Source of the DNA: Actinomycetota bacterium
GTDB lineage: Bacteria > Actinomycetota > Rubrobacteria > Rubrobacterales > Rubrobacteraceae
NCBI GenBank assembly: GCA_902810695.1
Contig: CADDYV010000039.1
Coordinates: 1 to 33,119, forward strand
Direction of reading: 5' to 3'
DNA: 33,119 nucleotides
The stretch's first letter is position 1. Each line of letters opens with the position of its first letter. The notes below the pieces were generated by a model. The model was not told where the DNA came from, did not search any database, and saw only the letters and a program-made list of their open reading frames with translations. Positions 172 to 20,712 of the stretch are shown here, piece after piece. A program made the translations under genes and the position numbers.

Positions 172-2191
172 TTACAGCACCACCACGCCGGCTCCGATCA
201 GCGCGTAGGTGAGGTAGGTGCTGAGGTTCGCGTTCTGGAGAGTCTCGTACAGCAGCGTCGCAGCGAACACCGCCAGCACGTACCCCAGGTAGGCGGACAA
301 ACCTCCCGATTGGATGTTCTTCATCTTGCGAGTGACCGACATCAGCGACGCCGCCATAGCCTCGTAGAAGGTTCCCTCCAGCCAGGGCACTATCCGGCAA
401 GTGTAGATGTGCGCCTTTTACCTTCTCGGTAGGCCGGTAGAAGGGGTAGAACACGGTCCGGATAGGGTTTGAGAAGCCCGGTGAGGTGTACTCCGCGCCG
501 CCGAGAAAGGGCTCACCAGAGGCCCACACCGGCCCAGATTTGCTCTGGGGAAGCCACACCACCGCAACAACCCCTGCGGTCATAAGTGCCAACAGCGGTA
601 GCGCCGCGGCCAGCAGAGTTGGCGAGAGCGCAGAGAAGTTCGGGTAGGCGGGCTGGAGGACCACCGAAGGTGTCCCGAACATCTTCTCCGAGATATTGCC
701 AGACACTATCCCCGCGCTCGCGCGGCCCACAAGCCGGATCCAATAGGGAGCGATAATGCCCAACGAGAGAGCCAGAATCGCCAGGAGCAACATACCCACG
801 CGACCACTCACCGGCGGCTGATTTGCGCCTGCCGGGTATTCGTTGCGCGGCCTGCCGAGGAAGACGCTTCCATAGACCTTCACGAAGCCCAAAATGGCCA
901 GAGCACTCGCCAGCGCCAGTAGCGCCCCCGCGATGGCCATCGAAGCTTTCCCGGCAAGCGAAGAGAGCCTGAAGCCCTGCATCAAAGGCTCGAATGACAA
1001 CCACTCCGTGGCGAACCCGCCGGAGGGCGGCATGGCAGCTAGAGAGAGGGCAGCAACAAAACAGAGTGCAGAGGTTAAAGGCATCCGCTGTGCAAGGCCC
1101 CCCAGCCGATCCATGTCCGTCGTTCCCGTGGCGTGATCTACCACTCCCAGGAGCAGGAGTGATTTGGAGGCCGAATGGTGGAGCATGTGGTAGAGAGCCA
1201 CCAGAAGCCCCAGCCCCGCAAGGGGTTTCAGCCCTGCAGCCCATCCCAACATCGAAGCTCCGATTCCTATGAGGATTATCCCACCGTTTTCTACGCTGGA
1301 ATAAGCCACAAACCGGCTGAGATCTCGCTGGGCTATTCTGTAGAGAATACCCACCGCAGGCGAGATACCGCCCACCAGCAAGGCCAGCAGCCCGCGCCAC
1401 TCCGGTCCCGCACCAAGGACCTGCATGTCCACTCGCCAGACCCCGTAGAAGCCCAGGTTCAGCACTACCCCTGCAAGGAGCGCCGAGACCGGCTTAGGGC
1501 TTTTGGAATGGGCGTCGGGCAGCCAGAGCTGGAGCGGAACCATCCCTGCTTTTACGCCGAATCCGACGAAGGAGAGCAGGAATATCGCGTTGGCGTAGGG
1601 TGTGGGAATAGACGACCTCGCCATCTCCCCGAAGCCGAAGCTGCCGCTTCTAGTGTAGGCCAGGAAGAAGGCGACGAAGATCAGGGTCGTCCCCAGCTTC
1701 GAGGCCGCAGAGAAGAGATATCCTGCGCCCACACGCCCTTCCCGCAGGTCCTCGAAACTAACCAACCCGTAGAACAGGACAGCCGTAAGCTCCCAGAAGA
1801 GCATGAATAGAAAGACGTGATCCGCGGCGAAAACGAGCAGCGTCGCCGCCATCAGCAAATCATACAACGCCGCGAACACCCATCTTGGGCCCCGTACCTC
1901 GTAGCCTGTAGCGTAGATCGAGACCGGAAGCAATACCATTCCCGAGACAAGCACGAAGAAGGCCGAGAGTCTATCCAGCCCGAACGTTACCGCACCGAAA
2001 CCGTATCCCAGACTGAAAGTGATCCCGAATCGGGCTCCGAAGAGAGCCGAAAGCCCGGCGAGGATTGCGAACAACCCGCCTGCTGCTCCCAAAACGAAAG
2101 CAGCTTGCGTGGAGACGTTTTTCTTCACCGGAGCGATCGCTGCCCCGAAGACAAGGGATAGTACGGAAAACCAGAAGAAAACACCGCTCAC
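172..2191 (-). pseudogene. hyfB: Second HyfB-like (NuoL/MrpA-type) antiporter subunit, single frameshift near C-terminus
   Basis: From GTG 2191 (ribosome site GGGGAGGG about 8 bases upstream) the reverse strand encodes a long membrane protein that aligns end to end with the HyfB encoded at 2512-4479. It starts VSGVFFWFSVL and has a WLPDAHSKSPKPVSALL motif typical of proton-translocating NuoL-like subunits, plus a HxxxHxxxKS loop. Near 416-419 there is one extra A/T pair in a 4-base run. Before it the frame reads YRPTEKV; after it KAHIYTCRIVPW continues the homology in another frame, to the TAA at 172-174. Without correction, the upstream frame stays open across usp to the window edge. The gene has its own fluoride riboswitch and is followed by usp. 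It is either a C-terminally broken gene or an intact gene with a sequencing error. An in-frame extension upstream of 2191 exists but is not family-like. Confidence 0.85.
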
Positions 2192-2375: not shown

Positions 2376-2450
2376 AAGCAAAAGCTCCTGCTCCGGTCGG
2401 GGCAGAAGCCATCAGCACCGAAGTGCGGTTAAGCGAGCTTCATCGCTATA
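2376..2450 (-). promoter_or_regulatory. Fluoride riboswitch 1 (crcB motif) with intrinsic terminator
   Basis: On the reverse strand, AGCGATGAAGCTCGCT forms P1 (2447 downward), followed by AACC, a GCAC-TTCG-GTGC stem and GCTGATGGCTTCTGCC. The loop GAAGC can pair with GCTTC in the 3' part as the pseudoknot. GCTTCTGC then pairs with GCAGGAGC (2384-2391), followed by a short T run (2380-2383), giving a terminator exclusive with the pseudoknot, so fluoride should turn the gene on. The last conserved triplet is TGC where the other four copies have TAC; the terminator arm carries the matching change. A -10-like TATAGAAT lies at 2456-2463, which would start the RNA near 2449. It precedes the second hyfB gene by about 185 bases. 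Confidence 0.88.
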
Positions 2451-2511
2451 TCTCTATTCTATACGATGTCCTGTGAGGCGCCATCTCACACGTCATGATC
2501 TTGTTGGGCAG

Positions 2512-4479
2512 CTACTGGACTGCCGCGTACAGGAGGATCACCAGGAGCACCGCGAACAGGTATGCCAGGTATGCGCTCAGGTTTCCAGACTGAATCACCT
2601 TCATCTTTCGGGTAATCCAGAGCAGCAACCTCGCCGCCGCTTCGTAGAAGGAGCTCTCGATCCAAGGCACGATGCGGGTGGTGTAGATTCGCTCCTTAAC
2701 TTCCTCCCGGGGCAGGTAAAAGTCCGCGAATACCGTGCGTATCGGGTTGGAGAAGCCGCGCGAGGTGTACTCCGTCCCGCCAAGACGTCTCTCTCCGGAA
2801 GCCCAGACCTCTCCGCGCCGCCCCCGTGATCTGCGCACTACCGCAACTATCCCGAGAGGCGCGAGCAGCAGTAAGGGCAGCGCCACCGCCAGCAGGGTGG
2901 GCGAGAGCGCAGAGAAGTTCGGGTAGGCGGGCTGGAGGACCACCGAAGGTGTCCCGAACATCCTCTCCGAGATGTCCCCGGACACGAGCCCTGCGCTCGC
3001 TCGGCCGATGAGCCTTATCCAGAGCGGCGCCAGCACCCCAAGAGATGCGGCGAGCAGGGCTAGAAGGGCCATCCCCAGCCTGCTGCTCAGTGGGGCTTTA
3101 TCGGCGTCTTTCCGGTATTCACTCCTCGGCCTGCCGAGGAAGACGCTCCCGTAGACTTTCACGAAACCCAAAATGGCCAGCCCGCTTGCCAGCGCCAACA
3201 GCGAGCCTGCCAGGGCCATCGGGATCCTCCCGGCGAGGGAGGGGAGTCTGAAGCCTTGCATCAGCGTCTCCAGAGAGAGCCATTCCGTGGCGAACCCGCT
3301 GGAAGGCGGCATGCCCGCCAGAGAAAATGCTCCAACCAGGAAGAGAACCGAGACCAGCGGCATGCGACGTGCGAGCCCTCCGAGGAGGTCCATGTCCGTC
3401 GTGCCCGAGGCGCGCTCCACGGCCCCGACGCCGAGAAACAGGAGCGACTTGGAAGCTGAGTGGTGGAGCATATGGTAGAGGGCCACGAGAAGCCCCAGCC
3501 CTGCAAGAGGTTTCAGCCCCGCGCTCCATCCCAGCATGGAGGCTCCGAGCCCCAGAAGCACTATCCCGGCGTTCTCGATGCTCGAGTATGCGACGAACCG
3601 GCCCAGATCCTTCTGGGCTATCCCGTATAGAATGCCGACCGCTGCCGAGACCGCCCCTACTAGCAGCACCAGGATGCCCCACCACTCCGGGCCTTTGCCG
3701 AGAACGCTCATGTTGAAGCGTGCGATCCCGTAGAACGCCACGTTCAGGACCACGCCCGCCAGCAAGGCCGCCGCGTTCGCCGGAGCCGCCGGATAGGCCC
3801 TGGGAAGCCAGAGTTGTACCGGAACCATCCCCGCCTTCACCCCGAACCCTACGAAAGCCAGGACGAATGCTGCGCTCGCCAGCATGCCGGGAAGCCGGGT
3901 AGAAGCCATCTGCCCGAAGACGAAGCTTCCGGACTTCAGGAAGACGAGCAGGAAGGCGGCCAGAATCAGGGCCGTCCCCAGCTTCGAGGCTGCGGACATC
4001 ACGTACCCGGCCCCCATGCGTCCCTCCTTCAGATCCTCGAAAGCCACCAGGGAATAGAACAGCACCGACATAACCTCCCAGAAAAACAGGAAGGCGAAGG
4101 CGTTATCTGAGACGAAGATCAGCAACGTCGCAGCCAGGATCAGGTTATAGAGGGCCGCGAAAGCCCGCCGCGAGCCCTGTACCTCATGGTCGAGAGAGTA
4201 GAGTGAGACCGGCACGGAAACCATGCCCGCGGCGAGCACGAAGAACCCACCGAGCGCGTCGAGGTCTGCTCCAGCGCGCCCGATCCCGTACCCCAGGTCC
4301 ACCGACCAGCCAAAACCGCCACCGTAAATCGCCGCGGCACCTGTCGCCACCGCCAGTAATCCGCCGAGGATGGAGAAGATGAATGAAATCTGCATCGAAA
4401 TCCGTTTGTCCGGGAGCGCGGCGGCAAGAGCTCCCAGAGCGAAGGCCAGAAGCGAGAATCCAAAGGCCGCTCCGCTCAT
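2512..4479 (-). CDS. hyfB: HyfB-like antiporter-type membrane subunit of the Ehr/Hyf complex
   Basis: 655 residues, almost entirely hydrophobic helices, of the proton-antiporter family (NuoL/HyfB/MrpA). Visible family marks are FFWEVMSVLFYSLVAFEDL (glutamate in a membrane helix), GFGVKAGMVP (lysine helix), the HMLHHSASKS loop and a C-terminal lateral region ending in one more membrane segment. The loop after KAGMVP reads WLPRAYPAAPANAAALL, where most homologues, including the second copy here and HyfF, have WLPDAHxxxPxPVSALL; the Asp and His are lost. It is the last gene of the eight-gene unit started by riboswitch 2. Its ATG overlaps the hyfI stop as ATGA, implying coupled translation. It should sit in the cytoplasmic membrane and move protons or Na+ as part of the complex. 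Confidence 0.9.
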   Translation of the reverse strand: MSGAAFGFSLLAFALGALAAALPDKRISMQISFIFSILGGLLAVATGAAAIYGGGFGWSVDLGYGIGRAGADLDALGGFFVLAAGMVSVPVSLYSLDHEVQGSRRAFAALYNLILAATLLIFVSDNAFAFLFFWEVMSVLFYSLVAFEDLKEGRMGAGYVMSAASKLGTALILAAFLLVFLKSGSFVFGQMASTRLPGMLASAAFVLAFVGFGVKAGMVPVQLWLPRAYPAAPANAAALLAGVVLNVAFYGIARFNMSVLGKGPEWWGILVLLVGAVSAAVGILYGIAQKDLGRFVAYSSIENAGIVLLGLGASMLGWSAGLKPLAGLGLLVALYHMLHHSASKSLLFLGVGAVERASGTTDMDLLGGLARRMPLVSVLFLVGAFSLAGMPPSSGFATEWLSLETLMQGFRLPSLAGRIPMALAGSLLALASGLAILGFVKVYGSVFLGRPRSEYRKDADKAPLSSRLGMALLALLAASLGVLAPLWIRLIGRASAGLVSGDISERMFGTPSVVLQPAYPNFSALSPTLLAVALPLLLLAPLGIVAVVRRSRGRRGEVWASGERRLGGTEYTSRGFSNPIRTVFADFYLPREEVKERIYTTRIVPWIESSFYEAAARLLLWITRKMKVIQSGNLSAYLAYLFAVLLVILLYAAVQ

Positions 4480-4961
4480 CTACCGGCCCCCGTGGTGTGC
4501 TGCGTGTGCTCGATCTTCTGCTCCATCCTGCCGAGTGCGAGGAGGATTCCGTGTAGCAGCGAGAGCGGCGGCGGGGGACTTCCAGGTACGTAAACATCCA
4601 CCGGCAGCACTCGGTCCACACCGCCCAGGGTCGCATACGAGCGGCCGTAGATGCCGCCGCCGCAGGCCGGTCCGCAGGCGGCGATTACGATCTTGGGCTC
4701 CGGCATCGCCTCGTACGCCGCCCGCAAGGGTCGCTCCATGGCCCGCGTTACCGGACCGGTGACCAGTAGCAGGTCCGCGTGACGCGGCGAGGGAGTAAAG
4801 AACAGCCCCACCCGGTGCAGATCGTAGTAGGGGTTCTGCAGTGCCTGAATTTCCGACTCGCAGGCCCCGCAGGACCCCGCATCCACGTGTCGGACGTGCA
4901 GCGAACGTCCGAAGGCTTTCACGCGCTCCTCCAGCGTTCCTATTGCCCGGGCCTCATCCAC
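4476..4961 (-). CDS. hyfI: HyfI/NuoB-like small subunit with one cluster ligand replaced by Ser
   Basis: 161 residues of the NuoB/HycG family, which carries the proximal [4Fe-4S] (N2-type) cluster next to the large subunit. C31 and C34 appear in GSCGACESE; SPRHADLLLVTGPVT is the family core; C96 and C100 appear in ACGPACGGG. The last ligand motif, normally VPGCPP, reads VPGSPP with Ser128, so the fourth cysteine is missing unless C96 or C100 substitutes. GTG start at 4961; it overlaps the end of hyfH by 8 bases and shares ATGA with hyfB. Together with the altered HyfG and HyfH this argues for a modified electron path, or none, in the complex. Confidence 0.9.
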   Translation of the reverse strand: MDEARAIGTLEERVKAFGRSLHVRHVDAGSCGACESEIQALQNPYYDLHRVGLFFTPSPRHADLLLVTGPVTRAMERPLRAAYEAMPEPKIVIAACGPACGGGIYGRSYATLGGVDRVLPVDVYVPGSPPPPLSLLHGILLALGRMEQKIEHTQHTTGAGR

Positions 4962-5283
4962 GGCGTACCACCGTCACCAGATCCTGGCAGTTGCGAACCG
5001 CTAACTCGAAGTCCGGCTCCATCGTGAAGGCGCCGCCCGGAACCTGCGCGCACAGCCCGCAGCAGATGCAGCGTCCGAGATCGAGTGTGAGTTCCTCTTC
5101 GGTAACCTGGATCGCACCCGGAAGACACGCCCGCGCGTAGGGCTCCCACGAGGCTTCGGGATCTAGCCGTTCCGGGTGTACCACCGGCCTGGCTCTAAAA
5201 CCTTCCGGCATACTCTCTGGGACTATCGGGTAGCGGGTCGTAACCCGCCTGCTGGTCAAGCCCCTGTAAAACCATCCGAGCAC
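4954..5283 (-). CDS. hyfH: HyfH/NuoI-like ferredoxin subunit retaining one of two [4Fe-4S] motifs
   Basis: 109 residues, shorter than usual HycF/NuoI proteins (about 160-180). The N-terminus MLGWFYRGL resembles the family's amphipathic anchor. A standard two-cluster ferredoxin has eight cysteines. Here only C53 (ACLPGAI, the fourth Cys of the first motif), C72, C75 and C78 (CICCGLC) are in place. Those four are exactly the ligands of one cluster. The first three Cys of motif one are replaced by HPERLDPEASWEPYA, and the last of motif two by Pro (AQVPGG). So one [4Fe-4S] cluster is predicted. The GTG start has AGGAGGT 9 bases upstream, 13 bases after hyfG. Role: electron transfer subunit of the complex on the cytoplasmic side. 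Confidence 0.85.
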   Translation of the reverse strand: MLGWFYRGLTSRRVTTRYPIVPESMPEGFRARPVVHPERLDPEASWEPYARACLPGAIQVTEEELTLDLGRCICCGLCAQVPGGAFTMEPDFELAVRNCQDLVTVVRRG

Positions 5284-5296
5284 CGGTTAAAACCTC

Positions 5297-6844
5297 CTAT
5301 CCGTCGCACCCGCCTTGCGAGAGGGCAAATGATTGCTCCATGAAAACGAAATCCGTCAGGATTTGACCTTCTATGGTGCGGGGGAAGAGTGGCCAGTTGA
5401 CGAACGAGGCGGTACGGACCTTTACCCTGTCCAGCAAACCTTTCTCGCCGAACCTGACGAAGTACATCTCCTCGCCGCGCGCCCCCTCGGCCCATCCCAG
5501 GGCTCGTGAACCGGGCTCGGGTACTGGCACTTCCGCGGAGATGGATCCCTCCGGCATCCGGTCTACGGCCTGTCGAATCAGGTCGAACGCATTATGTATC
5601 TCCTCGGTGCGCACGTTGAATCGGGCGTCGGCATCTCCGTCGGCGGCGGTGGCTACAGCGAACGCGAGCTCCGGGTAAGCAGCGTAAGGATGGTCTCTCC
5701 GGGAGTCCAGGTCCACTCCAGAACCGCGGGCGATAGGCCCGACGGCGCCGTATGCGACGGCATCCTCCCTGGAGAGAGGTCCGGCGGTGATGATCCGGTC
5801 CAGAAACGAGTCGGTCCGCTTGAGGAGGCGCGTCTCGGCTCCGAAATCTTTTTCCAGGCTGGACAACTCGTCGAGGAGCACGCCCGGATCCGCGAGATCC
5901 TGGCGGAGACCCCCGACCTGATTTACGCCCCGCAGGTAGCGGCTCCCGGTGAGAGCGGCGTTCAGCCGCAGCACGCGCTCCTTGAGGATCGAAAAGCGCG
6001 CGTTGGCCACGTTGAGCGAGGCGCCCTCGCAATGCTTGGCGATGTGATCCACGTGGTTGTATATGCGCTCCAGCTCCGCAAAGACTATCCGCAAATGCAG
6101 CGCCCGGGGCGGAACCTCTATCTCCAGGGCTCGCTCCACAGCCTGGCAGAAGGCCAGCGACTGGGCGAAGGAGTCCGTCCCCGAAACCCTCTCGGCGACC
6201 AGCGGCGCCTGTTCCAGGGAGACGCCTTCGAAGATCTTCTCCATCCCGCGGTGCTTGAAGAACATGTTGAGGTGGAGCCCCAGGATCTTCTCTCCCGGCG
6301 TGTCCACCACGAACTGCGCCGACTCGAAGATCCCCGAACGTATCGGACCGTAGGGCATGTGGAAAATGCCGTCGCCCTCAACCGGTTCGTGCATTCGGGG
6401 TCCGCTGCGCTCCGGCGGTGCCAGCTCGACCTCCCGTTCGCGGGGAAAGCTTTTTCTCATCGGGTAGAGCCCTTCCGGCCAGCCCTCCGGGAGAACGAGG
6501 CGCGTAGGATTTGGGTGCGCAGCGGGGGTGAGGCCGAAGAGGTCCCGGATCTCGCGCTCCGGCCACTCCGCCGCCGGCAGCCTCACGACCAGCGAACTGA
6601 AGCGCTCGGCCTCCAGAGGAGCCTCCAGCACCAGGTAATCGTCCCCGACATCGAGGATTACGTAAATGGCGAACCTTTCAGAAAGCTCTGCGGCGAACTC
6701 GGTGACGAACCGGGCACCCCCGCCCTCGACCAGGTCGGGAACGATGTACACGAGTTGCTCCGGCCGCAGCCGCAGCCACAGCTCCCCGCTGCGGGCTCGC
6801 TCCGGAGCCCGTCCTAGCCTCTCTTCGATCGCTCGCGCGTTCAC
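5297..6844 (-). CDS. hyfG: HyfG/HycE-like large subunit (NuoC-NuoD fusion) lacking [NiFe] ligands
   Basis: About 515 residues. The first ~170 resemble NuoC/HycE-N (PAAEWPEREIRDLFGL, PLxxDFP-like region); the rest resembles NuoD/HycE (LNMFFKHRGMEK, ELERIYNHVDHIAKH, TEEIHNAFDLI). A true group 4 hydrogenase has RxCGxC..H near the middle and DPCxxC at the end. Here the first motif reads RVSGTDSFAQS (R219 to S229) and the C-terminus reads TDFVFMEQSFALSQ with no Cys pair. All four Ni-Fe ligands are absent, so H2 chemistry is not expected. This matches the Ehr class of hydrogenase-related complexes. The GTG at 6844 overlaps the hyfF stop by one base and has GGAGGA 5 bases upstream. An upstream in-frame extension to 6964 has no family support. 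Confidence 0.9.
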   Translation of the reverse strand: MNARAIEERLGRAPERARSGELWLRLRPEQLVYIVPDLVEGGGARFVTEFAAELSERFAIYVILDVGDDYLVLEAPLEAERFSSLVVRLPAAEWPEREIRDLFGLTPAAHPNPTRLVLPEGWPEGLYPMRKSFPREREVELAPPERSGPRMHEPVEGDGIFHMPYGPIRSGIFESAQFVVDTPGEKILGLHLNMFFKHRGMEKIFEGVSLEQAPLVAERVSGTDSFAQSLAFCQAVERALEIEVPPRALHLRIVFAELERIYNHVDHIAKHCEGASLNVANARFSILKERVLRLNAALTGSRYLRGVNQVGGLRQDLADPGVLLDELSSLEKDFGAETRLLKRTDSFLDRIITAGPLSREDAVAYGAVGPIARGSGVDLDSRRDHPYAAYPELAFAVATAADGDADARFNVRTEEIHNAFDLIRQAVDRMPEGSISAEVPVPEPGSRALGWAEGARGEEMYFVRFGEKGLLDRVKVRTASFVNWPLFPRTIEGQILTDFVFMEQSFALSQGGCDG

Positions 6845-8313
6845 TATCTTCCTCCCGAAATCACGTTCGCCGCCCCGCGCAACGTCGCGCTCAGAATATC
6901 CGGCACCCACACCCCGAGTCCCAGGACGAACACGAGAGCGAACACCATCGCCGCCACCATCCACCTGGATGCCTCGCCGGGTTTCGCGCCTTTCGGAGGT
7001 TCGCCCAAAACCATCTGGTTCGCGTAGCGGAAAAGCCCGAGAAAGGCCAGGTTCACCAGGGCGAGCAACAGCGCTGCGGGGATAAACAGCGCGCCGCCGC
7101 GGGAGAATCCGCCGGCCAGGATCAAGAACTCGCTGCGGAAGATGCCAAACGGCGGCAGACCGCTGATCGCAATCCCCGCCATCAAAAACAGAACCGCCGT
7201 AGCCGGGACGATGTGGATCAGGCCGCGCACCTTCGCCGTCTCCTTTGTTCCGAGCTTTTTCAGGATACTCCCCGCGCCGAAGAACGCCATACTCTTGGTT
7301 GCGGCGTGGGTGAGTACGTGCAGGGCGACCCCGTAGAGAGCAAGAGGCGTTCCGAACGCCGTGCCCACCGCCAGAACCCCCATGTGCTCTATGGAGGAGT
7401 AGGCGAGAAGCCGTTTGAAGTCACGCTGGATGAGGACGAAGAACCCGGCCAAAATCAGCGACGTTATTCCGAAGACGAACAGGACGGTACTGGGAAAACC
7501 TGCGCCCACGGCCCCCACGGTTATCCCGTAGAAGCGAAAGATGGCGTACATCGCGTCAGCCAAAAGCGCGCCGGAGAGCAGAGCCGAGACGGGCGTGGGG
7601 CCTTCCGAGTGCGCGTCCGGGAGCCAGGTGTGCATCGGGACGAGCCCGGCCTTTGTTCCGAACCCGATCACGGCGAACAGGAACGCCAGCCGTACGGTGC
7701 TGTCCTCCAGCCTGCCGGAAGCCGAGAGCAGAACGCTCCAGTTCGGCTCGTACCCGGGTCCCAGAGCCCCCGTACCGCTGGCGTACAGGAGCACCACCCC
7801 CAGAAGGGCCAGCGCCAGCCCCGCAGAGGCAATAAGGATGTACTTCCAGGCGGCCTCCAGCGCGGATCCAGTCCCCTCCAGCCCGACCATGAGCGCCGAG
7901 ACGATAGTGGTAAGCTCCACCGCCACCCACACCAGGCCCAGGTTGTCCGTGGCCGGGACGAGGAGCATGGTGAAGGCGAAGAGATTCAGGAGCGCATAGA
8001 AGTTGCGCGCGTAGCGGGAGAAACCCGGAGAGTTCTGCTCACTCTTCAAATACCCGATGGAGAAGATGGCGCTCGCCGCGTACACCAGCGCCACCGAGAG
8101 GAGCAACACCACGCTCAGGGAGTCGGCGTATAAGATCCCTCCGGCGGTGGAAATCCTGCCTCCCCTTAACTCCAGCAGGCTGCCTGCCAGAGCGAGTGTG
8201 GCGATGGCTCCGGCGACGGTGAGCGCCTGCGAGATGCGGGGCGCAGGCGAGAGGTACGTAACGATACCCAGAAGCAGGGGGATGACAAGGAGAGCACAGA
8301 GCGCGGCCATCAT
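6844..8313 (-). CDS. hyfF: HyfF-like antiporter-type membrane subunit
   Basis: 489 residues, about 14 membrane helices, NuoN/HyfF family. Canonical features are intact: VWVAVELTTIVSALMVG (membrane glutamate), GFGTKAGLVPMHTWLPDAH then GPTPVSALLSG, RLLAYSSIEHMG, and HVLTHAATKSMAFF. This subunit is expected to translocate protons or Na+ in the membrane arm. Start ATG at 8313 overlaps the hyfE stop (ATGA type). It lies in the middle of the riboswitch 2 operon. In contrast with HyfB its proton-channel motifs are undamaged, which suggests the membrane arm still pumps although the catalytic site of HyfG is gone. Confidence 0.93.
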   Translation of the reverse strand: MMAALCALLVIPLLLGIVTYLSPAPRISQALTVAGAIATLALAGSLLELRGGRISTAGGILYADSLSVVLLLSVALVYAASAIFSIGYLKSEQNSPGFSRYARNFYALLNLFAFTMLLVPATDNLGLVWVAVELTTIVSALMVGLEGTGSALEAAWKYILIASAGLALALLGVVLLYASGTGALGPGYEPNWSVLLSASGRLEDSTVRLAFLFAVIGFGTKAGLVPMHTWLPDAHSEGPTPVSALLSGALLADAMYAIFRFYGITVGAVGAGFPSTVLFVFGITSLILAGFFVLIQRDFKRLLAYSSIEHMGVLAVGTAFGTPLALYGVALHVLTHAATKSMAFFGAGSILKKLGTKETAKVRGLIHIVPATAVLFLMAGIAISGLPPFGIFRSEFLILAGGFSRGGALFIPAALLLALVNLAFLGLFRYANQMVLGEPPKGAKPGEASRWMVAAMVFALVFVLGLGVWVPDILSATLRGAANVISGGR

Positions 8314-8969
8314 CCTCTAAGCTCCCTCAGAGGAGAAGTTGTTACGGTCGAGCGGCGTACAGCCAAGAGCCTCACCAGCACACCGAAGACCAGCACCGCC
8401 ATCAACACGTCGAAGAGGATCAAGAGCCCCACCAGAAGCGGCAGGCCGGGGGCAATGGCGACCGTTCCCAGGAAGATCCCGTTCTCCAGCGTAAGCAGGC
8501 CGATGAGCTGCGAGATGGTGTTGAGGCGTGTGATCATGAAGAAAAACCCGATCAGGACCACAGCGAGCCCGATGGCGAACGCGCTGTGGGGCAGGAGCAC
8601 GCCGCGCAGGTTCAGTTTGAGAGTCGCTGCGTATGCTATTCCGGTAAAGACCAGAGCCGCGATCAGCGAGGAGGGAACTCCGACCGCGAGGGGAACCTCG
8701 ACCTCCACGTGCTCGTCTATCCCGCGAGTCAGGCGCAGCACGATCGCGGGCACCAGCACAACCTTCGCCACCACGGTAACCGCCGCCAAGACGTAGAGGC
8801 CCACGTTTCCGGTGATGAGGCCCGCGACCCCCGAGAAGACCGCGACGAAAAACGACTCGAAGGCGTAGAGCGAGGTCTGTCCGTGTATCGCTCGCGACCT
8901 CAAGAGGCCGAACTGCATCAGAATCACCAGTACGGCCGAGAGGTTCCCGACGGCTTCCAGGGCGCCCAT
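8310..8969 (-). CDS. hyfE: HyfE-like membrane subunit
   Basis: 219 residues, hydrogenase-4 component E family. The C-terminal half (RLNTISQLIGLLTLENGIFL) is the NuoK-like part with the conserved glutamate in LLTLENG. The N-terminal half supplies extra helices (ESFFVAVFSGVAGLITG). It is expected in the membrane arm, between HyfC and the antiporter subunits. ATG at 8969 immediately follows the hyfC stop at 8971-8973, and its own stop overlaps the hyfF ATG, so translation is coupled on both sides. Confidence 0.9.
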   Translation of the reverse strand: MGALEAVGNLSAVLVILMQFGLLRSRAIHGQTSLYAFESFFVAVFSGVAGLITGNVGLYVLAAVTVVAKVVLVPAIVLRLTRGIDEHVEVEVPLAVGVPSSLIAALVFTGIAYAATLKLNLRGVLLPHSAFAIGLAVVLIGFFFMITRLNTISQLIGLLTLENGIFLGTVAIAPGLPLLVGLLILFDVLMAVLVFGVLVRLLAVRRSTVTTSPLRELRG

Positions 8970-8970
8970 C

Positions 8971-9927
8971 TCACCTGCCTCCCAGGTAGAAAGTAACTAT
9001 TGCGAGCACGGAGAGTATGAATCCTGCCCCCATAAACTCCGGTATCTTGAGCAGCCTGAGCTTGGCGAAGGAAGATTCGATCCCGACGACCACGGCGGCC
9101 ACGACCATCATCTTCGCCAGGAGCAGCACCAGCGCCAGAAACACCGTGAGCGGCCTCCCGTCGGCGGAGAGGCCCCAGGGGAAGACCAGTACGTTCACGA
9201 AGATCACGTACAGAAGAAACTGCTTCATCGCCGTTCCCCACTTCAAGAGCGCCATCTCCGGTCCGGAGTGCTCGAAGATGCGCGCCTCGTCTATCATGCC
9301 GAACTCCAGAGTGGAGGAAGAACTCTCTATAGGGATGCGCCCGGTGTCCACGAGTATCATCAGGAAGAATGCCGCTATCGAGAGGACGTGGCTCGCGGAG
9401 AAAACGGTCGCCCACGAATTCCTCAAGGACTCCCCCATAACGTAGGGCAGGTCGGTCTTGCTGATGAGTGCGACGGTGAAGAAGACGAAGATGAGGGTCG
9501 GCTCTGCCAGCACGGATACCATCATCGCCCGGCTCGCCCCCAGTCCCGAGTACGGGCTGCCCGAATCGAGCCCCGCAAGCGCGATGAAGAAGGCGGCTAA
9601 AGAGAATAGAAATGCCCCGCCCAGGATGTCCCCCATGTACCCGAGCGGTAGGGGGAAGCTGGTTAATACTGGTATGAGCATGGCGATGCTCATGTAGGAG
9701 GCAAAGGCGACGTAGGGGGCGAGGAAGTAGATCCAGGATACCCCTTGCGGAGTGGAGCGGCTCTTGCGCAGGTACTTCCAGATATCGTAGTAGGGCTGGA
9801 AAACGCTTGGGCCTTTGCGAGCCTGCAGGATAGCCTCCGCGCGTGAGATCACGCCGGTGATGAGCGGAGAGAAGATGAGCAGCGTAAGCACCTGCAAAGC
9901 CTGCAATACAACCGGTGGCAGCGCCAA
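8971..9927 (-). CDS. hyfC: HyfC/NuoH-like membrane subunit
   Basis: About 318 residues, NuoH/HycD family, the membrane anchor that meets the peripheral arm. Marks include LQARKGPSVFQPYYDIWKYL near the N-terminus, LAGLDSGSPYSGLGASRAMM, TGRIPIESSSSTLEFGMIDE (the conserved Glu-rich loop) and a C-terminal KIPEFMGAGF. I chose TTG at 9927, 9 bases after GAGGAGG at the end of the preceding gene; an alternative TTG at 9954 overlaps that gene more and adds residues foreign to the family. It is the second gene of the riboswitch 2 operon. Confidence 0.92.
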   Translation of the reverse strand: MALPPVVLQALQVLTLLIFSPLITGVISRAEAILQARKGPSVFQPYYDIWKYLRKSRSTPQGVSWIYFLAPYVAFASYMSIAMLIPVLTSFPLPLGYMGDILGGAFLFSLAAFFIALAGLDSGSPYSGLGASRAMMVSVLAEPTLIFVFFTVALISKTDLPYVMGESLRNSWATVFSASHVLSIAAFFLMILVDTGRIPIESSSSTLEFGMIDEARIFEHSGPEMALLKWGTAMKQFLLYVIFVNVLVFPWGLSADGRPLTVFLALVLLLAKMMVVAAVVVGIESSFAKLRLLKIPEFMGAGFILSVLAIVTFYLGGR

Positions 9928-9928
9928 G

Positions 9929-10192
9929 CTACACAGCCTCCTCGCGGGCCACAAGCTCGTTCAGGTAGCAGACTTCGCAGACCATCTCCAGCCTGCGGCC
10001 TCCTTTCTGGCGGTTAGGTGTCATGATGCCCACCGGCTTCGGGCGGGAGTGATAGACGAGCTTGACCACGTGCCTGCGACAGACAAACGCTCCGCAACGG
10101 CAACAGGTAGCTACGGGAGACTCCTCTTCGTTCTCGCACAACAAGCACCTGCCGAATACCGGAATCGCTCCGTGGTCCTGATCCTCTGGCAC
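9929..10192 (-). CDS. Small Cys-rich zinc-binding-like protein (DUF2180-like), paralogue A
   Basis: 87 residues from GTG 10192, which has AGGAGGT about 9 bases upstream; an in-frame extension to 10237 lacks a ribosome site. The Cys/His pattern is CLLC, then CCRCGAFVCRRH, then CEVC, which fits two small zinc-binding knuckles and resembles DUF2180 proteins. A paralogue at 13972-14235 has the same length and shares RCLLCE, CGA-VC, PVG and RRLEMVCE-CYLN. Both are the first gene behind a fluoride riboswitch. Function is unknown: a zinc-dependent adaptor, metallochaperone or RNA/DNA-binding regulator would all fit. Here it leads the Hyf/Ehr operon. Confidence 0.75.
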   Translation of the reverse strand: MPEDQDHGAIPVFGRCLLCENEEESPVATCCRCGAFVCRRHVVKLVYHSRPKPVGIMTPNRQKGGRRLEMVCEVCYLNELVAREEAV

Positions 10193-10249: not shown

Positions 10250-10332
10250 AACGAAAAGGCTCCTACTCCGGACTGACCGGGGTAGAAGCCATCAGCACCT
10301 CGCTGGTGCGGTTAAGCGAGCTTCATCGCTAC
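10250..10332 (-). promoter_or_regulatory. Fluoride riboswitch 2 with intrinsic terminator, leader of the Hyf/Ehr operon
   Basis: The reverse strand has AGCGATGAAGCTCGCT (from 10330), TAACCGC, a GCACC-AGCG-AGGTGC stem and GCTGATGGCTTCTACC (ending 10281). GGCTTCTAC pairs with GTAGGAGCC (10258-10266), with an inner CCGG-type stem, followed by TTTTCGTTTT. The terminator arm uses the same GGCTTC needed for the pseudoknot with the P1 loop, so ligand binding should prevent termination. The first gene starts about 58 bases downstream. Confidence 0.92.
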
Positions 10333-10353
10333 TTCTTTTTGCTTGCCGGAGAG

Positions 10354-13971: not shown

Positions 13972-14235
13972 CTAAGCCGTCCACTCACCGTCCGCCAGCC
14001 CGTTCAAGTAGCAAGTCTCGCAGACCATCTCCAGGCGCCGGGTGCTCCTGCGGGATCTCGGGACCATGAGCCCTACAGGAGTTGGGGATGGGTAGTGAAT
14101 CAGCCGCACCGCATGGTCTTCGCACACCAGGGCGCCACAACGACGGAAGACTGCCACAGGAGGGCGGCCTGTATCCTCACAGAGCAAGCACCTGCTAACC
14201 GTCCAACTCGTATTCCACTCCCGATCGTGCTCCAT
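13972..14235 (-). CDS. Small Cys-rich zinc-binding-like protein (DUF2180-like), paralogue B
   Basis: 87 residues from ATG 14235, with GGAGAGGAGC upstream. The pattern is CLLC, then RRCGALVCEDH, then CETC. Compared with paralogue A at 9929-10192, the first Cys of the middle knuckle is replaced by Phe (AVFRRCG versus ATCCRCG), so one zinc site may be altered. It is the first gene behind riboswitch 3, followed after about 120 bases by the hydrolase and MFS genes. The repeated placement directly behind fluoride switches suggests a general role in the fluoride response, unknown in detail. Confidence 0.72.
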   Translation of the reverse strand: MEHDREWNTSWTVSRCLLCEDTGRPPVAVFRRCGALVCEDHAVRLIHYPSPTPVGLMVPRSRRSTRRLEMVCETCYLNGLADGEWTA

Positions 14236-14288: not shown

Positions 14289-14372
14289 GAAAAGAAAAGG
14301 CTCCTACTCCCGACCTCTCGGGGTAGAAGCCATCAGCACCCTGGGTGCGGTTGAGCGAGCTTCATCGCTATC
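14289..14372 (-). promoter_or_regulatory. Fluoride riboswitch 3 with intrinsic terminator
   Basis: The reverse strand has AGCGATGAAGCTCGCT (from 14369), CAACCGC, a GCACC-CAG-GGTGC stem, and GCTGATGGCTTCTACCCC. GGCTTCTACCCCGA pairs with TCGGGAGTAGGAGCC (14299-14313), followed by TTTTCTTTTC. This is an unusually long terminator stem that competes with the GAAGC/GCTTC pseudoknot. The first gene starts about 54 bases downstream. Confidence 0.92.
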
Positions 14373-14387
14373 CTGTGCTAAAATCGA

Positions 14388-14507: not shown

Positions 14508-14581
14508 GCGGAGCCGCAGGCGTAACACTCAGATTTGTGTGATGTTTGTCGTAAAATAACAGACACGCGATGGGGCTCCGC
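14508..14581. repeat. 8-bp inverted repeat upstream of the DUF47 gene
   Basis: GCGGAGCC (14508-14515) and GGCTCCGC (14574-14581) are perfect complements enclosing 58 bases. The whole 14400-14670 stretch holds no gene I can support; besides the riboswitch 3 promoter it contains this repeat and a small AAAGC/GCTTT hairpin near 14450. Confidence 0.3.
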
Positions 14582-14671
14582 GTGGTGGATTGCTGCCAAA
14601 CTACCCGCAGACGGTTGATGGCTCCTAGTAAAGTTGTCGGCATTGACAGCGAAGGAGACCTGAAGAGCGGC

Positions 14672-16663: not shown

Positions 16664-16712
16664 AGATTCTCCGAAGCACATCGGCAACCCGAAGTGGTAA
16701 ACTAATATATAC

Positions 16713-16800
16713 AGGGGTGATGAAGCTCACCCGGCAACCGCATCCGCCTGAGATGCTGATGGCTTCTACGCCGAGTAGCCGGCGTAGAAGCCTTTTCTCG
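16713..16800 (+). promoter_or_regulatory. Fluoride riboswitch 4 with intrinsic terminator
   Basis: GGGTGATGAAGCTCACCC forms P1, followed by GGCAACCGC, a GCATC...GATGC stem and GCTGATGGCTTCTACG. GGCTTCTACGCCG (16761-16773) pairs perfectly with CGGCGTAGAAGCC (16780-16792), followed by TTTTCTC, a 13-bp terminator stem. TAATAT at 16703-16708 would serve as -10, starting the RNA at the first bases of P1. The first gene starts about 90 bases downstream. Confidence 0.93.
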
Positions 16801-17458: not shown

Positions 17459-18994
17459 ATGCGGTTCCACAGCATCCTATTTGACCAGTTCGAAGGCAGC
17501 GTCGAGGTCGCTGAGCTGGAGGAGCCTTCCTTCTTTGCCGACTTGAACCTCGATCAGGTGCTGGAGTCTATGACCACAGGGCGTAAGGAATATGACCTGA
17601 AGCCCTTCTTCTACGCTCCGTTGCACGACGTTGCAGCCGTGAAGTATCGCCATGAAGTACTGCGCGACCTCGAAAAGCACGCCGTGTTCGAGTCGGTGAG
17701 GGCATTTGCGCAGAGGATGCGGAGAATGCGCGAGCACCTCGCTCAGGCGGAGAAGCTGCACTACGAGTGTCAGAAGGAACGCTGGTTCCTGGACGCGGTG
17801 GAGATCTACTGCGATGCCGTCCGCTCTCTGGCGGGCGAGTTGGCTCATCTAGAGGTGAATTCGCGGGGATTTCAGGCGTTCCGCGAATACCTCAGCGGCT
17901 ACACCGAATCGGAGGGCTTCACGTCGCTTGCAGCCGAGACGCAATCACTGAAAGAGGCTCTCGCCGGGGTGAAATACTCCGTTCACATCAAGGGAAACCG
18001 GGTCAGGGTCAGTAAGTACGACGAGGAACCAGACTACAGCGCGGAGGTGGAGAAGATATTCGCGAAGTTCAAGCAAGGAGCGGTGAAGAGCTACCGGGTC
18101 AAGTTCCCCAACTGGCCGGACATGAATCACGTTGAAGCGCGTGTGCTGGAACTGGTCGCGCGGCTGTACCCGGAGGTCTTCGGTACTCTGGAGAAGTACT
18201 GCACCCACCACCGCGATTATCTCGACGGCGCGATCGGCATCTTTGACCGCGAGGTGCAGTTCTACCTGGCATATCTGGAGTACATCGAGCGGTTCGAGAC
18301 AGCAGGATTGCCGTTTTGCTACCCACAGATGTCCGCTCAATCGAAGAATGTCCGTGCCGATGGAGCGTTCGACCTCGCCCTGGCCAACAAGCTCGTCTCC
18401 GAGGGCTCGTCCGTGGTGTGCAACGACTTCTACCTGAACGACCCGGAGCGCATTCTCGCGGTCACCGGCCCGAACCAGGGCGGTAAGACGACCTTCACGC
18501 GGATGTTCGGCCAGCTACATTACCTGGCCAGCCTGGGGCTTCCGGTTCCCGCGAGCGGAGCCCGACTCTTCCTCCCCGACCAGATCTTCACCCACTTCGA
18601 GAGAGAAGAGGACGTCGAAACGCTCAGAGGCAAGCTGGAGGACGACCTGATCAGGATCCACAAAATCCTCGAAGAGGCGACGGGTAGCAGCATCATCATC
18701 CTGAACGAGAGCTTCAGCTCCACAACCCTCAGAGACGCCCTCTTCCTCGGAACGGAGGTGCTGAACCGCATAGCAGAGCTGGGCTCGCTGTGCGTATGCG
18801 TAACTTTCGTTGACGAGCTGGCGTCTCTCAACGAGGCGACCGTGAGCATGGTCGGCACTGTAGATCCAGACAACCCGGCGATGCGGACGTTCAAGATCGT
18901 CAGAAAACCTCCCCAGGGACTCGCCTACGCGATCGCGATCGCCCGCAAGTACGGCCTCACGTACGAGACACTGAAGGAGCGCGTCGCACGATGA
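17459..18994 (+). CDS. MutS-like ATPase A
   Basis: 511 residues. The N-terminal ~300 are helical, resembling the MutS core/lever domain III; the mismatch-binding domain I is absent. The C-terminal ATPase has Walker A TGPNQGGKTTF near 336-346, a Walker B variant IIILNESFSST near 412-421 with Asn-Glu rather than Asp-Glu, and the region VTFVDELASL in place of the usual VTHxxEL. This places it among the MutS-related ATPases other than canonical MutS1. ATG at 17459 follows AGGAGGTGAAG by about 8 bases. The next gene encodes a second MutS-like protein and overlaps by ATGA, so the two probably form a heterodimer. Such genes have been reported behind fluoride riboswitches. Confidence 0.85.
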   Translation: MRFHSILFDQFEGSVEVAELEEPSFFADLNLDQVLESMTTGRKEYDLKPFFYAPLHDVAAVKYRHEVLRDLEKHAVFESVRAFAQRMRRMREHLAQAEKLHYECQKERWFLDAVEIYCDAVRSLAGELAHLEVNSRGFQAFREYLSGYTESEGFTSLAAETQSLKEALAGVKYSVHIKGNRVRVSKYDEEPDYSAEVEKIFAKFKQGAVKSYRVKFPNWPDMNHVEARVLELVARLYPEVFGTLEKYCTHHRDYLDGAIGIFDREVQFYLAYLEYIERFETAGLPFCYPQMSAQSKNVRADGAFDLALANKLVSEGSSVVCNDFYLNDPERILAVTGPNQGGKTTFTRMFGQLHYLASLGLPVPASGARLFLPDQIFTHFEREEDVETLRGKLEDDLIRIHKILEEATGSSIIILNESFSSTTLRDALFLGTEVLNRIAELGSLCVCVTFVDELASLNEATVSMVGTVDPDNPAMRTFKIVRKPPQGLAYAIAIARKYGLTYETLKERVAR

Positions 18995-20517
18995 AAGCCT
19001 TCCTCATGTACAGAGACCAGGACTTCGACCTCGGGCGCGAGCTACCCACCAATGAGGGCGCGCTTACACAGGATCTCGGCCTCAATACGCTCTTCGAGGC
19101 GATGGCTCTCGGGGACGAGTTCCTCTTCGACGTGGTCAAGAAGGCGCTTCTGTCCAGCCTGACCGACCCGGAGGAGATCACCTATCGTCAGCAGGCCCTC
19201 GCCGACTGCCTCGAGGAGCCGGAGATCATCAGGGACATCTACCGGATCGCGGTAGAGGCTATTCAGGGCGAAAAGAATATCTTCCTCGGCCTCCTCAAGG
19301 ACTCACCCGACGCCATACTGAACCGATCCCTGCAAGTCCTGCAGTTGTTCTTCGATCTGCTCAAGAGACTGAGGCAGATCGCCGATGAGCACGCTGCCAG
19401 GTTCCGCTCGGAAGCCTTCACCCGGTTCTTCGCGATGCTTGAGAAGGAACTCGACGATAAATACCTTCAGACCGTCGAGCACCACCTCAAAGAGCTGCAG
19501 TTTCATGGTGGAGTCCAGATCAGCGCGCGCCTCGGCAGGGGCAATAAAGGCGCTAACTACGTGCTCCGCACTCCCAAACAGCAGAGCCTCATGGAGCGCC
19601 TGCCTTTCGGAAATCGCTCCGGTTACAGCTTCACGATCCCCGACCGGGACATGAGCGGCCTTAGAGCGGTGGACGAGTTGCGGGGTAGAGGTCTCAACCC
19701 CATCGCCAACGCTCTCGCCCAGTCTACCGACCATATTCTGAGTTTCTTCACCATGTTGCGCTCCGAGTTGGCCTTCTACATCGGCTGCCTGAACCTGCAT
19801 TCGCGGCTTGCCGAGAAGGACGAGCCCACGTGTTTTCCTGTCCCGCTGGTATCTGGTCGGGACGAGCTTTCGGCACAGGGACTCTACGACGTCTCGCTCA
19901 GCCTAAACCTCGAAGAGCGGGTCGTCGGCAACGACCTGGGCACTGATGGCAAACGGCTCGTGATGATCACGGGAGCAAATCAGGGAGGAAAGTCCACGTT
20001 CTTGCGCAGCGTAGGTCTGGCGCAGTTGATGATGCAGGGTGGGATGTTCGTGCCGGCCGAATCCTTTCGTGCCAGCGTCTGTAACGGAATATTCACCCAC
20101 TACAAGCGGGAAGAAGACGCCACCATGACAAGCGGCAAGCTCGATGAGGAACTGAGCAGGATGAGCGACATCGCCGCCAAGATAACCCCGAACAGTATCC
20201 TGCTGTGCAACGAATCATTCGCCTCGACAAACGAGCGAGAGGGGTCGGAGATCGCCCGTCAGGTAGTCTGTGCACTGATAGAAGCGAACGTCAAGATCTT
20301 TTTCGTCACTCATCTGTTCGACCTGGCGTACGGGTTCTACCATGAGCGACTGGACACAGCTCTCTTCCTTCGCGCCGAAAGGCAGCCTGATGGGAGGCGC
20401 ACGTTTCGTCTCGTCGAAGGCGAGCCGCTGCCCACCAGCTATGGCGAAGATTCCTATCGGCGGATCTTCAGCGTCTCTTCCGAGGATGCACCGACGACTT
20501 CGGACGTCAGAAGGTGA
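18991..20517 (+). CDS. MutS-like ATPase B
   Basis: 508 residues, same architecture as its upstream partner: helical N-terminal domain, then an ATPase with Walker A ITGANQGGKSTF from about 326, the FTHYKREEDATMTSGKLDEE segment (partner A has FTHFEREEDVETLRGKLEDD), Walker B ILLCNESFASTNEREG and the VTHLFDLA switch. Both partners have N-E in Walker B, so hydrolysis may use only the Glu. The pair shares the spacing of all motifs but diverges strongly in the N-terminal half, as expected for a heterodimer. Role unknown: DNA or RNA structure processing under fluoride stress is possible, but without domain I a mismatch role is unlikely. Confidence 0.85.
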   Translation: MKAFLMYRDQDFDLGRELPTNEGALTQDLGLNTLFEAMALGDEFLFDVVKKALLSSLTDPEEITYRQQALADCLEEPEIIRDIYRIAVEAIQGEKNIFLGLLKDSPDAILNRSLQVLQLFFDLLKRLRQIADEHAARFRSEAFTRFFAMLEKELDDKYLQTVEHHLKELQFHGGVQISARLGRGNKGANYVLRTPKQQSLMERLPFGNRSGYSFTIPDRDMSGLRAVDELRGRGLNPIANALAQSTDHILSFFTMLRSELAFYIGCLNLHSRLAEKDEPTCFPVPLVSGRDELSAQGLYDVSLSLNLEERVVGNDLGTDGKRLVMITGANQGGKSTFLRSVGLAQLMMQGGMFVPAESFRASVCNGIFTHYKREEDATMTSGKLDEELSRMSDIAAKITPNSILLCNESFASTNEREGSEIARQVVCALIEANVKIFFVTHLFDLAYGFYHERLDTALFLRAERQPDGRRTFRLVEGEPLPTSYGEDSYRRIFSVSSEDAPTTSDVRR

Positions 20518-20621
20518 CGGTTGTTGTGCCTGCTAGCGCCCGGGCGGGATTGGGTCCGGGAGCGCCACGTGTGAGGTCCGAAGGGCCTCAGCGCAAGAGG
20601 CGGAGTATAATAAATAACTAG

Positions 20622-20712
20622 CGAAGGCGATGAAGCTCGCCGCAAACCGCATCTCTATCAGGTGCTGATGGCTTCTACACCGGGTTGCCGGAGAGTAGGA
20701 GCTTTTTCTTTG
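20622..20712 (+). promoter_or_regulatory. Fluoride riboswitch 5 with intrinsic terminator and upstream -10 box
   Basis: GGCGATGAAGCTCGCC forms P1 (from 20626), followed by GCAAACCGC, a GCATC...GGTGC stem and GCTGATGGCTTCTAC. GCTTCTAC (20671-20678) pairs with GTAGGAGC (20695-20702), with inner CCGG/CCGG, followed by TTTTTCTTT. A consensus TATAAT lies at 20606-20611; no good -35 box is seen. The first gene starts at 20762. Confidence 0.93.

Follow-up and report, generated by a model that had tools for sequence, protein, structure and literature searches.

A Hyf-like operon behind a fluoride riboswitch in Rubrobacteraceae, and its place in a clade of hydrogenase-related complexes without Ni-Fe cysteines

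The operon and its subunits

The window analysed here is one whole contig (CADDYV010000039.1, 33,119 bp) from a 3.59-Mb genome in 148 contigs of an actinobacterium of the Rubrobacteraceae (GCA_902810695.1). It holds an operon of eight genes on the minus strand (10192-2512), all with open frames, that follows a fluoride riboswitch and reads, in order of transcription, small Cys/His-rich protein, hyfC, hyfE, hyfF, hyfG, hyfH, hyfI and hyfB (Table 1). Ever since the motif was first reported, lists of fluoride-riboswitch genes have included 'formate hydrogenlyase' (PMC2864571); a review of 2024 takes it to be an enzyme of anaerobic fermentation metabolism (PMC11139923). Residue alignments, phylogeny and gene neighbourhoods instead support the assignment of the window complex to a putative fluoride-induced member of the energy-converting hydrogenase-related (Ehr) complexes, within the superfamily of complex I and group 4 hydrogenases.

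The large subunit HyfG is homologous to Escherichia coli HycE (phmmer E=1.5e-65 to 7z0s_E) and aligns with other Hyf and Nuo large subunits. All four Ni-Fe cysteines of HycE (C241, C244, C531 and C534) are replaced, by S221, D224, S509 and G512, respectively, and the protein ends with the loop of the second Cys pair, the tail seen after this pair in HycE/HyfG being absent. The only cysteines of the window HyfG are C233, C272 and C513. An alternative four-Cys ligand set was considered and rejected, given that C272, the best-kept Cys of the clade described below (13/16), is isolated. The quinone-site residues H220 and Y273 of E. coli NuoCD correspond to Arg and Gly in the window HyfG and to R/Y/F and G/A across the clade, with Arg for His in 12 of the 16 sequences.

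The two small hydrophilic subunits are also depleted of ligands. Among the eight canonical cysteines of HyfH, C1-C3 and C8 are gone, while C4 (C53) and C5-C7 (C72, C75 and C78) are present, together with two extra non-canonical ones (C74 and C99); in complex I (NuoI/Nqo9), the C4-C7 set of the 2[4Fe-4S] pattern provides the N6b ligands. HyfI is homologous to HycG (E=1.8e-39), and the HycG ligands C48, C51, C115 and C145 align with C31, C34, P98 and S128, so that two of the four N2-type ligands are lost; unaligned cysteines lie at 96 and 100. Judged by sequence, none of the known catalytic sites would be present in the window complex, and no more than one standard cluster site would be complete. 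Within the operon we recognised neither a formate dehydrogenase (FdhF) or HycB/HyfA-type gene nor NuoE, NuoF or NuoG.

The membrane arm is kept. Both HyfF and HyfB carry the equivalents of the Glu in transmembrane helix (TM) 5, the Lys in TM7 and the Glu in TM12 of NuoM, a Glu/Lys/Glu pattern that most clade members retain; HyfC has the E157 equivalent and carries Glu in place of D213, and the conserved Glu of HyfE is present. Comparison of the window with its relative G098 gives a ratio of nonsynonymous to synonymous substitution rates (dN/dS) of ~0.11-0.26 for every subunit, which indicates purifying selection; for the pair G098-G109 the values of hyfF, hyfH and hyfB were excluded, given that the open frames include flanking out-of-gene sequence. 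The ligand losses are not chance events, because they are common to relatives that are 71-72% identical and under purifying selection. Single-sequence structure predictions had low confidence (predicted local distance difference test score of 41.5 for HyfI and 35.7 for HyfG) and were discarded.

The initial annotation of this DNA, made from the letters alone, had described a HyfG without any of the four Ni-Fe cysteines, a claim that ligands elsewhere in the protein would have overturned, a HyfH keeping exactly the four cysteines of one cluster and an intact HyfF, and the alignments agree on each of these points, the HyfH set being C4-C7 (cluster II, N6b type). For HyfI it had noted the change from PGCPP to PGSPP, which is correct (S128), but the extent was understated, as the third ligand is also gone (P98).

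A clade linked to fluoride riboswitches

The 3' strand of the operon aptamer (GGCTTCTACC...) doubles as the 5' arm of a strong terminator hairpin, so fluoride binding would prevent termination. This implies a transcriptional fluoride ON switch for the operon, as predicted from the overlap of the two structures. A -35/-10 match just upstream of the riboswitch is weak and provides no evidence by itself, given that shuffled sequences yield about as many such matches as the region does. The fluoride-switched unit reaches beyond the operon to a second hyfB (hyfB2) behind its own riboswitch, in which a frameshift reflects either a pseudogene or an assembly error. A separate hyfB-like gene behind a riboswitch is also seen in G087 (riboswitch at L041:15291-15352, gene from 15448 onward).

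The host's class is represented by 39 genomes in our set, and phylum searches gave a Cys-less HyfG match in just four of them. The non-actinobacterial evidence consists of plasmid sequences. A HyfG scan of the contig set returned an ordinary complex I locus in Mesorhizobium and nothing else. In a maximum-likelihood tree of 40 HyfG sequences, built with the reference Ehr sequences of the defining papers left out, the 16 fluoride-type sequences form one clade (support 95/96) with hosts in Actinomycetota, Burkholderiaceae and Bacillota. Its sister clade (96/84) consists of the remaining 15 Cys-less Ehr sequences, and the node joining the two (31 rows) has moderate support (84/80). Outside both lie the [NiFe] group 4 hydrogenases, a four-Cys variant group and NuoCD. 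The 31 sequences of the two Ehr clades lack every one of the four Ni-Fe cysteines, all of which are present in the aligned group 4 hydrogenases. As a separate observation, the HyfG of L054, L055, L056 and L105 form a group with the motifs RACGAC ... FELCYSC, unlike those of standard [NiFe] enzymes, with four cysteines, or three plus Asp in G642.

A riboswitch above the cut-off lies upstream in 14 of 16 members of the fluoride clade versus 0 of 15 members of the sister clade (Fisher p=5e-7, although the rows are related and non-independent and the effective sample is about five lineages). The candidate in G058, placed precisely upstream of hyfC, is weak (18.9 bits, below the cut-off), and lowering the threshold to a lax level revealed no riboswitch near the G220 operon. 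A profile of ten sequences recovered the further members G622, G656, G590 and G328, and a HyfC search recovered Burkholderia cenocepacia; all five of these loci outside the profile have the riboswitch upstream of hyfC. The window HyfC is 47-50% identical to riboswitch-linked plasmid homologues and ~35% or less to others. Gene order is diagnostic, being C-E-F-G-(H)-I-B in every complete fluoride-type operon and mostly B-C-E-F-G-I or I-B-C-E-F-G elsewhere.

Within the clade, the N2 ligands of HyfI range from complete to absent. They are CCCC in Burkholderia, Caballeronia, G094 and G656, CCCN in G282 and G622, CCPS in the window branch and D/N-D/E-D-A/S, with no Cys, in M. branderi, G590, G328, G058 and G220. 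The HyfI of L087, L096, L097, L044 and L048 have mostly acidic residues in place of the N2 cysteines (e.g. GSDGSDEWE ... TDAISGG), which makes this a candidate site for metal binding or regulation. HyfH was found in the window and three relatives only, and the window's own HyfH as query gave no match in M. branderi, G590, G328, G058 or G220, a search by similarity that a strongly divergent HyfH could escape. As far as aligned residues tell, a ligand set for known redox centres is unrecognisable in the mycobacterial branch, yet three of its members (M. branderi, G590 and G328) have a riboswitch above the cut-off.

The operons lie in islands of fluoride-associated genes, almost all with a major facilitator superfamily (MFS) transporter. 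Pairs of MutS-like genes occur in the window, G087, G098, Caballeronia, Alicyclobacillus, G590, G328 and B. cenocepacia (the last by annotation), CrcB with DUF190 in G094, G282, G656 and Alicyclobacillus, inorganic pyrophosphatase, DUF190 and dynamin in the Burkholderia islands, enolase, DUF190 and MFS in the M. branderi island, and dynamin in G094 and G282. Two of these, enolase and pyrophosphatase, already count among the genes under fluoride riboswitches (PMC11139923). Dynamin-family GTPases stand behind fluoride riboswitches beside the complex at L045:5133-6902 and L046:4127-5941. In the MutS_V pairs Pfam sees the MutS ATPase domain alone, and the label 'DNA repair mutS' may be misleading too. 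On the plasmid of Alicyclobacillus sp. ALC3 (L092:7624-9323), which was not among the matches listed in the HyfC plasmid search, a HyfG of the clade stands alone behind a riboswitch, beside CrcB, DUF190 and MFS.

Seven RF01734 matches were found in the window's genome, six of them above the cut-off (gathering score 34); six of the seven, including the weak one, lie in the window, and the seventh directly precedes a CrcB-like gene followed by DUF190-like genes (named by eye). The first operon gene has no Pfam or NCBIfam match, and homologues occupy the same operon position in G087, G098 and G109. A related small Cys/His-rich protein without Pfam match (13972-14235, minus strand) is likewise the first gene behind its own fluoride riboswitch.

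Table 1. Positions in the window of the operon, its riboswitches and neighbouring features.
Feature	Position	Strand	Basis or remark
Fluoride riboswitch aptamer (RF01734) before operon	10276..10339	-	40.4 bits, E=5.3e-8
Terminator hairpin overlapping aptamer 3' strand, then U-rich tail	10250..10290	-	-23.0 kcal/mol, z=-5.3, 0/200 shuffles as good
Small Cys/His-rich protein, operon gene 1	9929..10192	-	GTG start, good Shine-Dalgarno sequence by eye; open reading frame reaches 10237
hyfC, NuoH/HycD-like membrane subunit	8971..9954	-	PF00146 E=4e-33
hyfE, NuoK-containing membrane subunit	8310..8969	-	NF008556 hydrogenase 4 membrane subunit E=8e-20
hyfF, antiporter-like, NuoM/N/L-type	6844..8313	-	PF00361 E=1e-51; residue alignment
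hyfG, fused NuoC-NuoD-like large subunit, 515 aa	5297..6844	-	phmmer and ligand alignment
hyfH	4954..5283	-	Only cluster II (N6b type) canonical Cys present (n=4)
hyfI, NuoB-like	4476..4961	-	PF01058 E=3.5e-24
hyfB, antiporter-like	2512..4479	-	NF005086 hydrogenase 4 subunit B E=1.6e-152, under equivalog cut-off
Second fluoride riboswitch, before hyfB2	2396..2456	-	41.2 bits, E=2.7e-8; overlapping terminator -16.9, z=-2.5
Second hyfB paralogue (hyfB2)	172..2188	-	66% identical to hyfB; one frameshift near 413-422
Fluoride riboswitch of neighbouring operon	14317..14378	-	38.2 bits; terminator -24.8, z=-4.6
Neighbouring operon: second small Cys protein, sulfatase-like, MFS, DUF190-like	14235-10620	-	Pfam
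Sixth, weaker fluoride riboswitch	14557-14634	+	31 bits, below cut-off; divergent from 14378-14317
Fluoride riboswitch, then short open reading frame and two MutS_V-domain proteins	16707-16775; 17459-20517	+	511 and 508 aa, adjacent
Strongest fluoride riboswitch of the window	20617-20684	+	46.7 bits; precedes 277-aa protein (no Pfam match) and DUF6062 protein

What the complex may do

We estimate a probability of about one half that the complex is an electron-independent, Mrp-like cation/H+ transporter without redox catalysis. A translocator role is plausible in that it fits the intact membrane residues, and the ion movement would probably help the cell to survive fluoride. Linkage to fluoride-resistance genes, the kept membrane residues, the loss of ligands, purifying selection and the riboswitch all count for a transporter, and the strongest argument is the mycobacterial branch, which lacks recognisable ligand sets but is still switched, so that the fluoride function there would need no electron transfer. 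According to a 2024 review, which also sets out the importance of pH homeostasis, Na+/H+ antiporters rank next after exporters among the classes of fluoride-riboswitch genes (PMC11139923).

In such a mechanism, fluoride would enter as HF and dissociate, leaving an acid cytoplasm and a lower proton-motive force, on which export by Fluc/CrcB and CLC-F would depend. The riboswitch would then turn the operon on, and HyfB, HyfF, HyfC and HyfE would jointly carry out electrogenic cation/H+ exchange, with HyfG and HyfI as a structural or gating lid in place of the former redox module. Once pH and membrane potential were restored, CrcB could export F-. More tentatively, a complex I-type machine without redox chemistry may have been recruited as a fluoride-induced ion transporter in which the acidic N2 replacements would serve as a novel site of regulation, perhaps by a metal or metal-fluoride.

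Several observations weigh against an electron-independent transporter. The full cluster site in the window HyfH and the complete CCCC ligands in the HyfI of Burkholderia, Caballeronia, G094 and G656 may mean that some electron transfer remains there. In the sub-branch of G094, G282, G622 and G656 (L045, L046, L094 and L095), the TM5 Glu of HyfF is replaced by Gly or Ala, although the Lys and the TM12 Glu are still there. No membrane subunits lie near the lone HyfG of Alicyclobacillus, which a pure transporter model leaves unexplained.

The first of these points would also suit an ion pump driven by redox chemistry with a novel acceptor, in which electrons from HyfH and HyfI reduce an unnamed substrate in the emptied HyfG pocket and drive Mbx/Mbs-like pumping. 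Published proposals for Ehr complexes, a cytoplasmic redox reaction coupled to charge translocation (PMC6349859), favour it as well, as do the spare cysteines at 96 and 100 of the window HyfI. We nevertheless consider such a pump unlikely, given that HyfH was detected in so few members, every N2 Cys is gone in five of them, no electron-input gene was recognised in the operon and the Ni-Fe and quinone residues are absent.

It is still less probable that the complex deals with fluoride itself, either transporting it (F-/H+ or HF) or sensing it where the Ni-Fe/N2 pocket used to be, perhaps as Mg2+-F- at the acidic D-D-D site, and thereby gating transport. The confinement of the fluoride link to one clade, the acidic replacement of three N2 cysteines in most of the five loci, the Arg that replaces the complex I His and the solitary riboswitch-linked HyfG of Alicyclobacillus would all fit, but several of these islands or genomes have CrcB and the window branch has no acidic site. 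A decaying remnant hitch-hiking in a fluoride island would account for the lost ligands and the frameshifted hyfB2; we rejected it on the low dN/dS, and eight open main genes and the conservation of the same switch and gene order in several lineages make it very improbable.

Least credible of all is a genuine formate hydrogenlyase or hydrogenase as currently annotated, for which there speak the 'nickel-dependent hydrogenase large subunit' annotation of the B. cenocepacia homologue, the name used in the riboswitch literature and a HypD gene in the window's genome, but all riboswitch-linked members examined lack the four Ni-Fe cysteines and the C-terminal tail, and HypD was not found in G098 and G220, both carriers of the operon. 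At the level of ligands a hydrogenase is excluded in every riboswitch-linked case examined. HypD is present in G087 and G109 as well as in the window's genome, and for the latter its absence is hence unusable as proof against a hydrogenase. Given one clade in which all members are without Ni-Fe ligands, the literal 'formate hydrogenlyase' reading under fluoride riboswitches is very probably wrong. The initial annotation had objected to the same label, proposing an Ehr-type complex under fluoride control; the missing ligands and formate dehydrogenase or HycB/HyfA-type genes, the 31 Cys-less sequences set against intact group 4 hydrogenases, and the clade-wide association with a riboswitch that in the window overlaps a terminator all support that proposal.

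In the literature searched, whose coverage was partial, we found no link between the fluoride-riboswitch 'formate hydrogenlyase' and Ehr. As far as that search goes, what is new is that the riboswitch-linked operons make up a single Ehr clade, distinct in gene order and devoid of Ni-Fe ligands, some members being without a recognisable redox ligand set. The question thereby shifts to how pH and ions are kept in balance under fluoride. For complex I, too, the clade amounts to a natural experiment: the hydrophilic connector is retained while redox centres are lost stepwise, which allows one to ask whether a membrane arm can translocate ions without electrons. If the transporter model is true, nature would here offer a case of the complex I membrane arm and connector running without them.

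Comparison with known systems

The fluoride riboswitch regulon (crcB, eriC, mutS, 'formate hydrogenlyase', enolase and pyrophosphatase) shares the same RNA and the same neighbouring genes with the window, but its 'formate hydrogenlyase' member is here re-identified as a Cys-less Ehr clade. Ehr complexes are defined by a group 4-like large subunit without Ni-Fe ligands (PMC6349859), and Ni-Fe-less Ehr complexes are known (PMC6349859, PMC7304191). The window type resembles them in its Hyf-like subunits, missing Ni-Fe cysteines and antiporter-like HyfB and HyfF (PF00361), and they form its sister clade in the tree; it differs by the fluoride riboswitch, the C-E-F-G-(H)-I-B order, the repeated loss of N2 ligands and the location in fluoride-resistance islands.

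Hydrogenase 4 and formate hydrogenlyase (E. coli Hyf and Hyc) provide the best solved match of HyfG and HyfI (7z0s) and have the same HyfB/C/E/F/G/H/I set. In contrast to these enzymes, the window complex has no Ni-Fe ligands, C-terminal extension or recognised HyfA/HycB or FdhF, and N6a and part of N2 are gone. Complex I (NuoCD, NuoB, NuoI, NuoH and NuoL/M/N) shares the homologous hydrophilic connector and membrane arm and likewise has no Ni-Fe site, whereas the window complex lacks NuoE/F/G, its quinone-site His and Tyr are replaced and its N6a and N2 ligands are incomplete, the N6b-type set alone being complete. Mrp Na+/H+ antiporters have antiporter-like subunits with the Glu/Lys pattern and do not need redox chemistry. 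To our knowledge, they have no hydrophilic module of the HyfG/HyfI type, whereas the window complex retains such a module in redox-crippled form.

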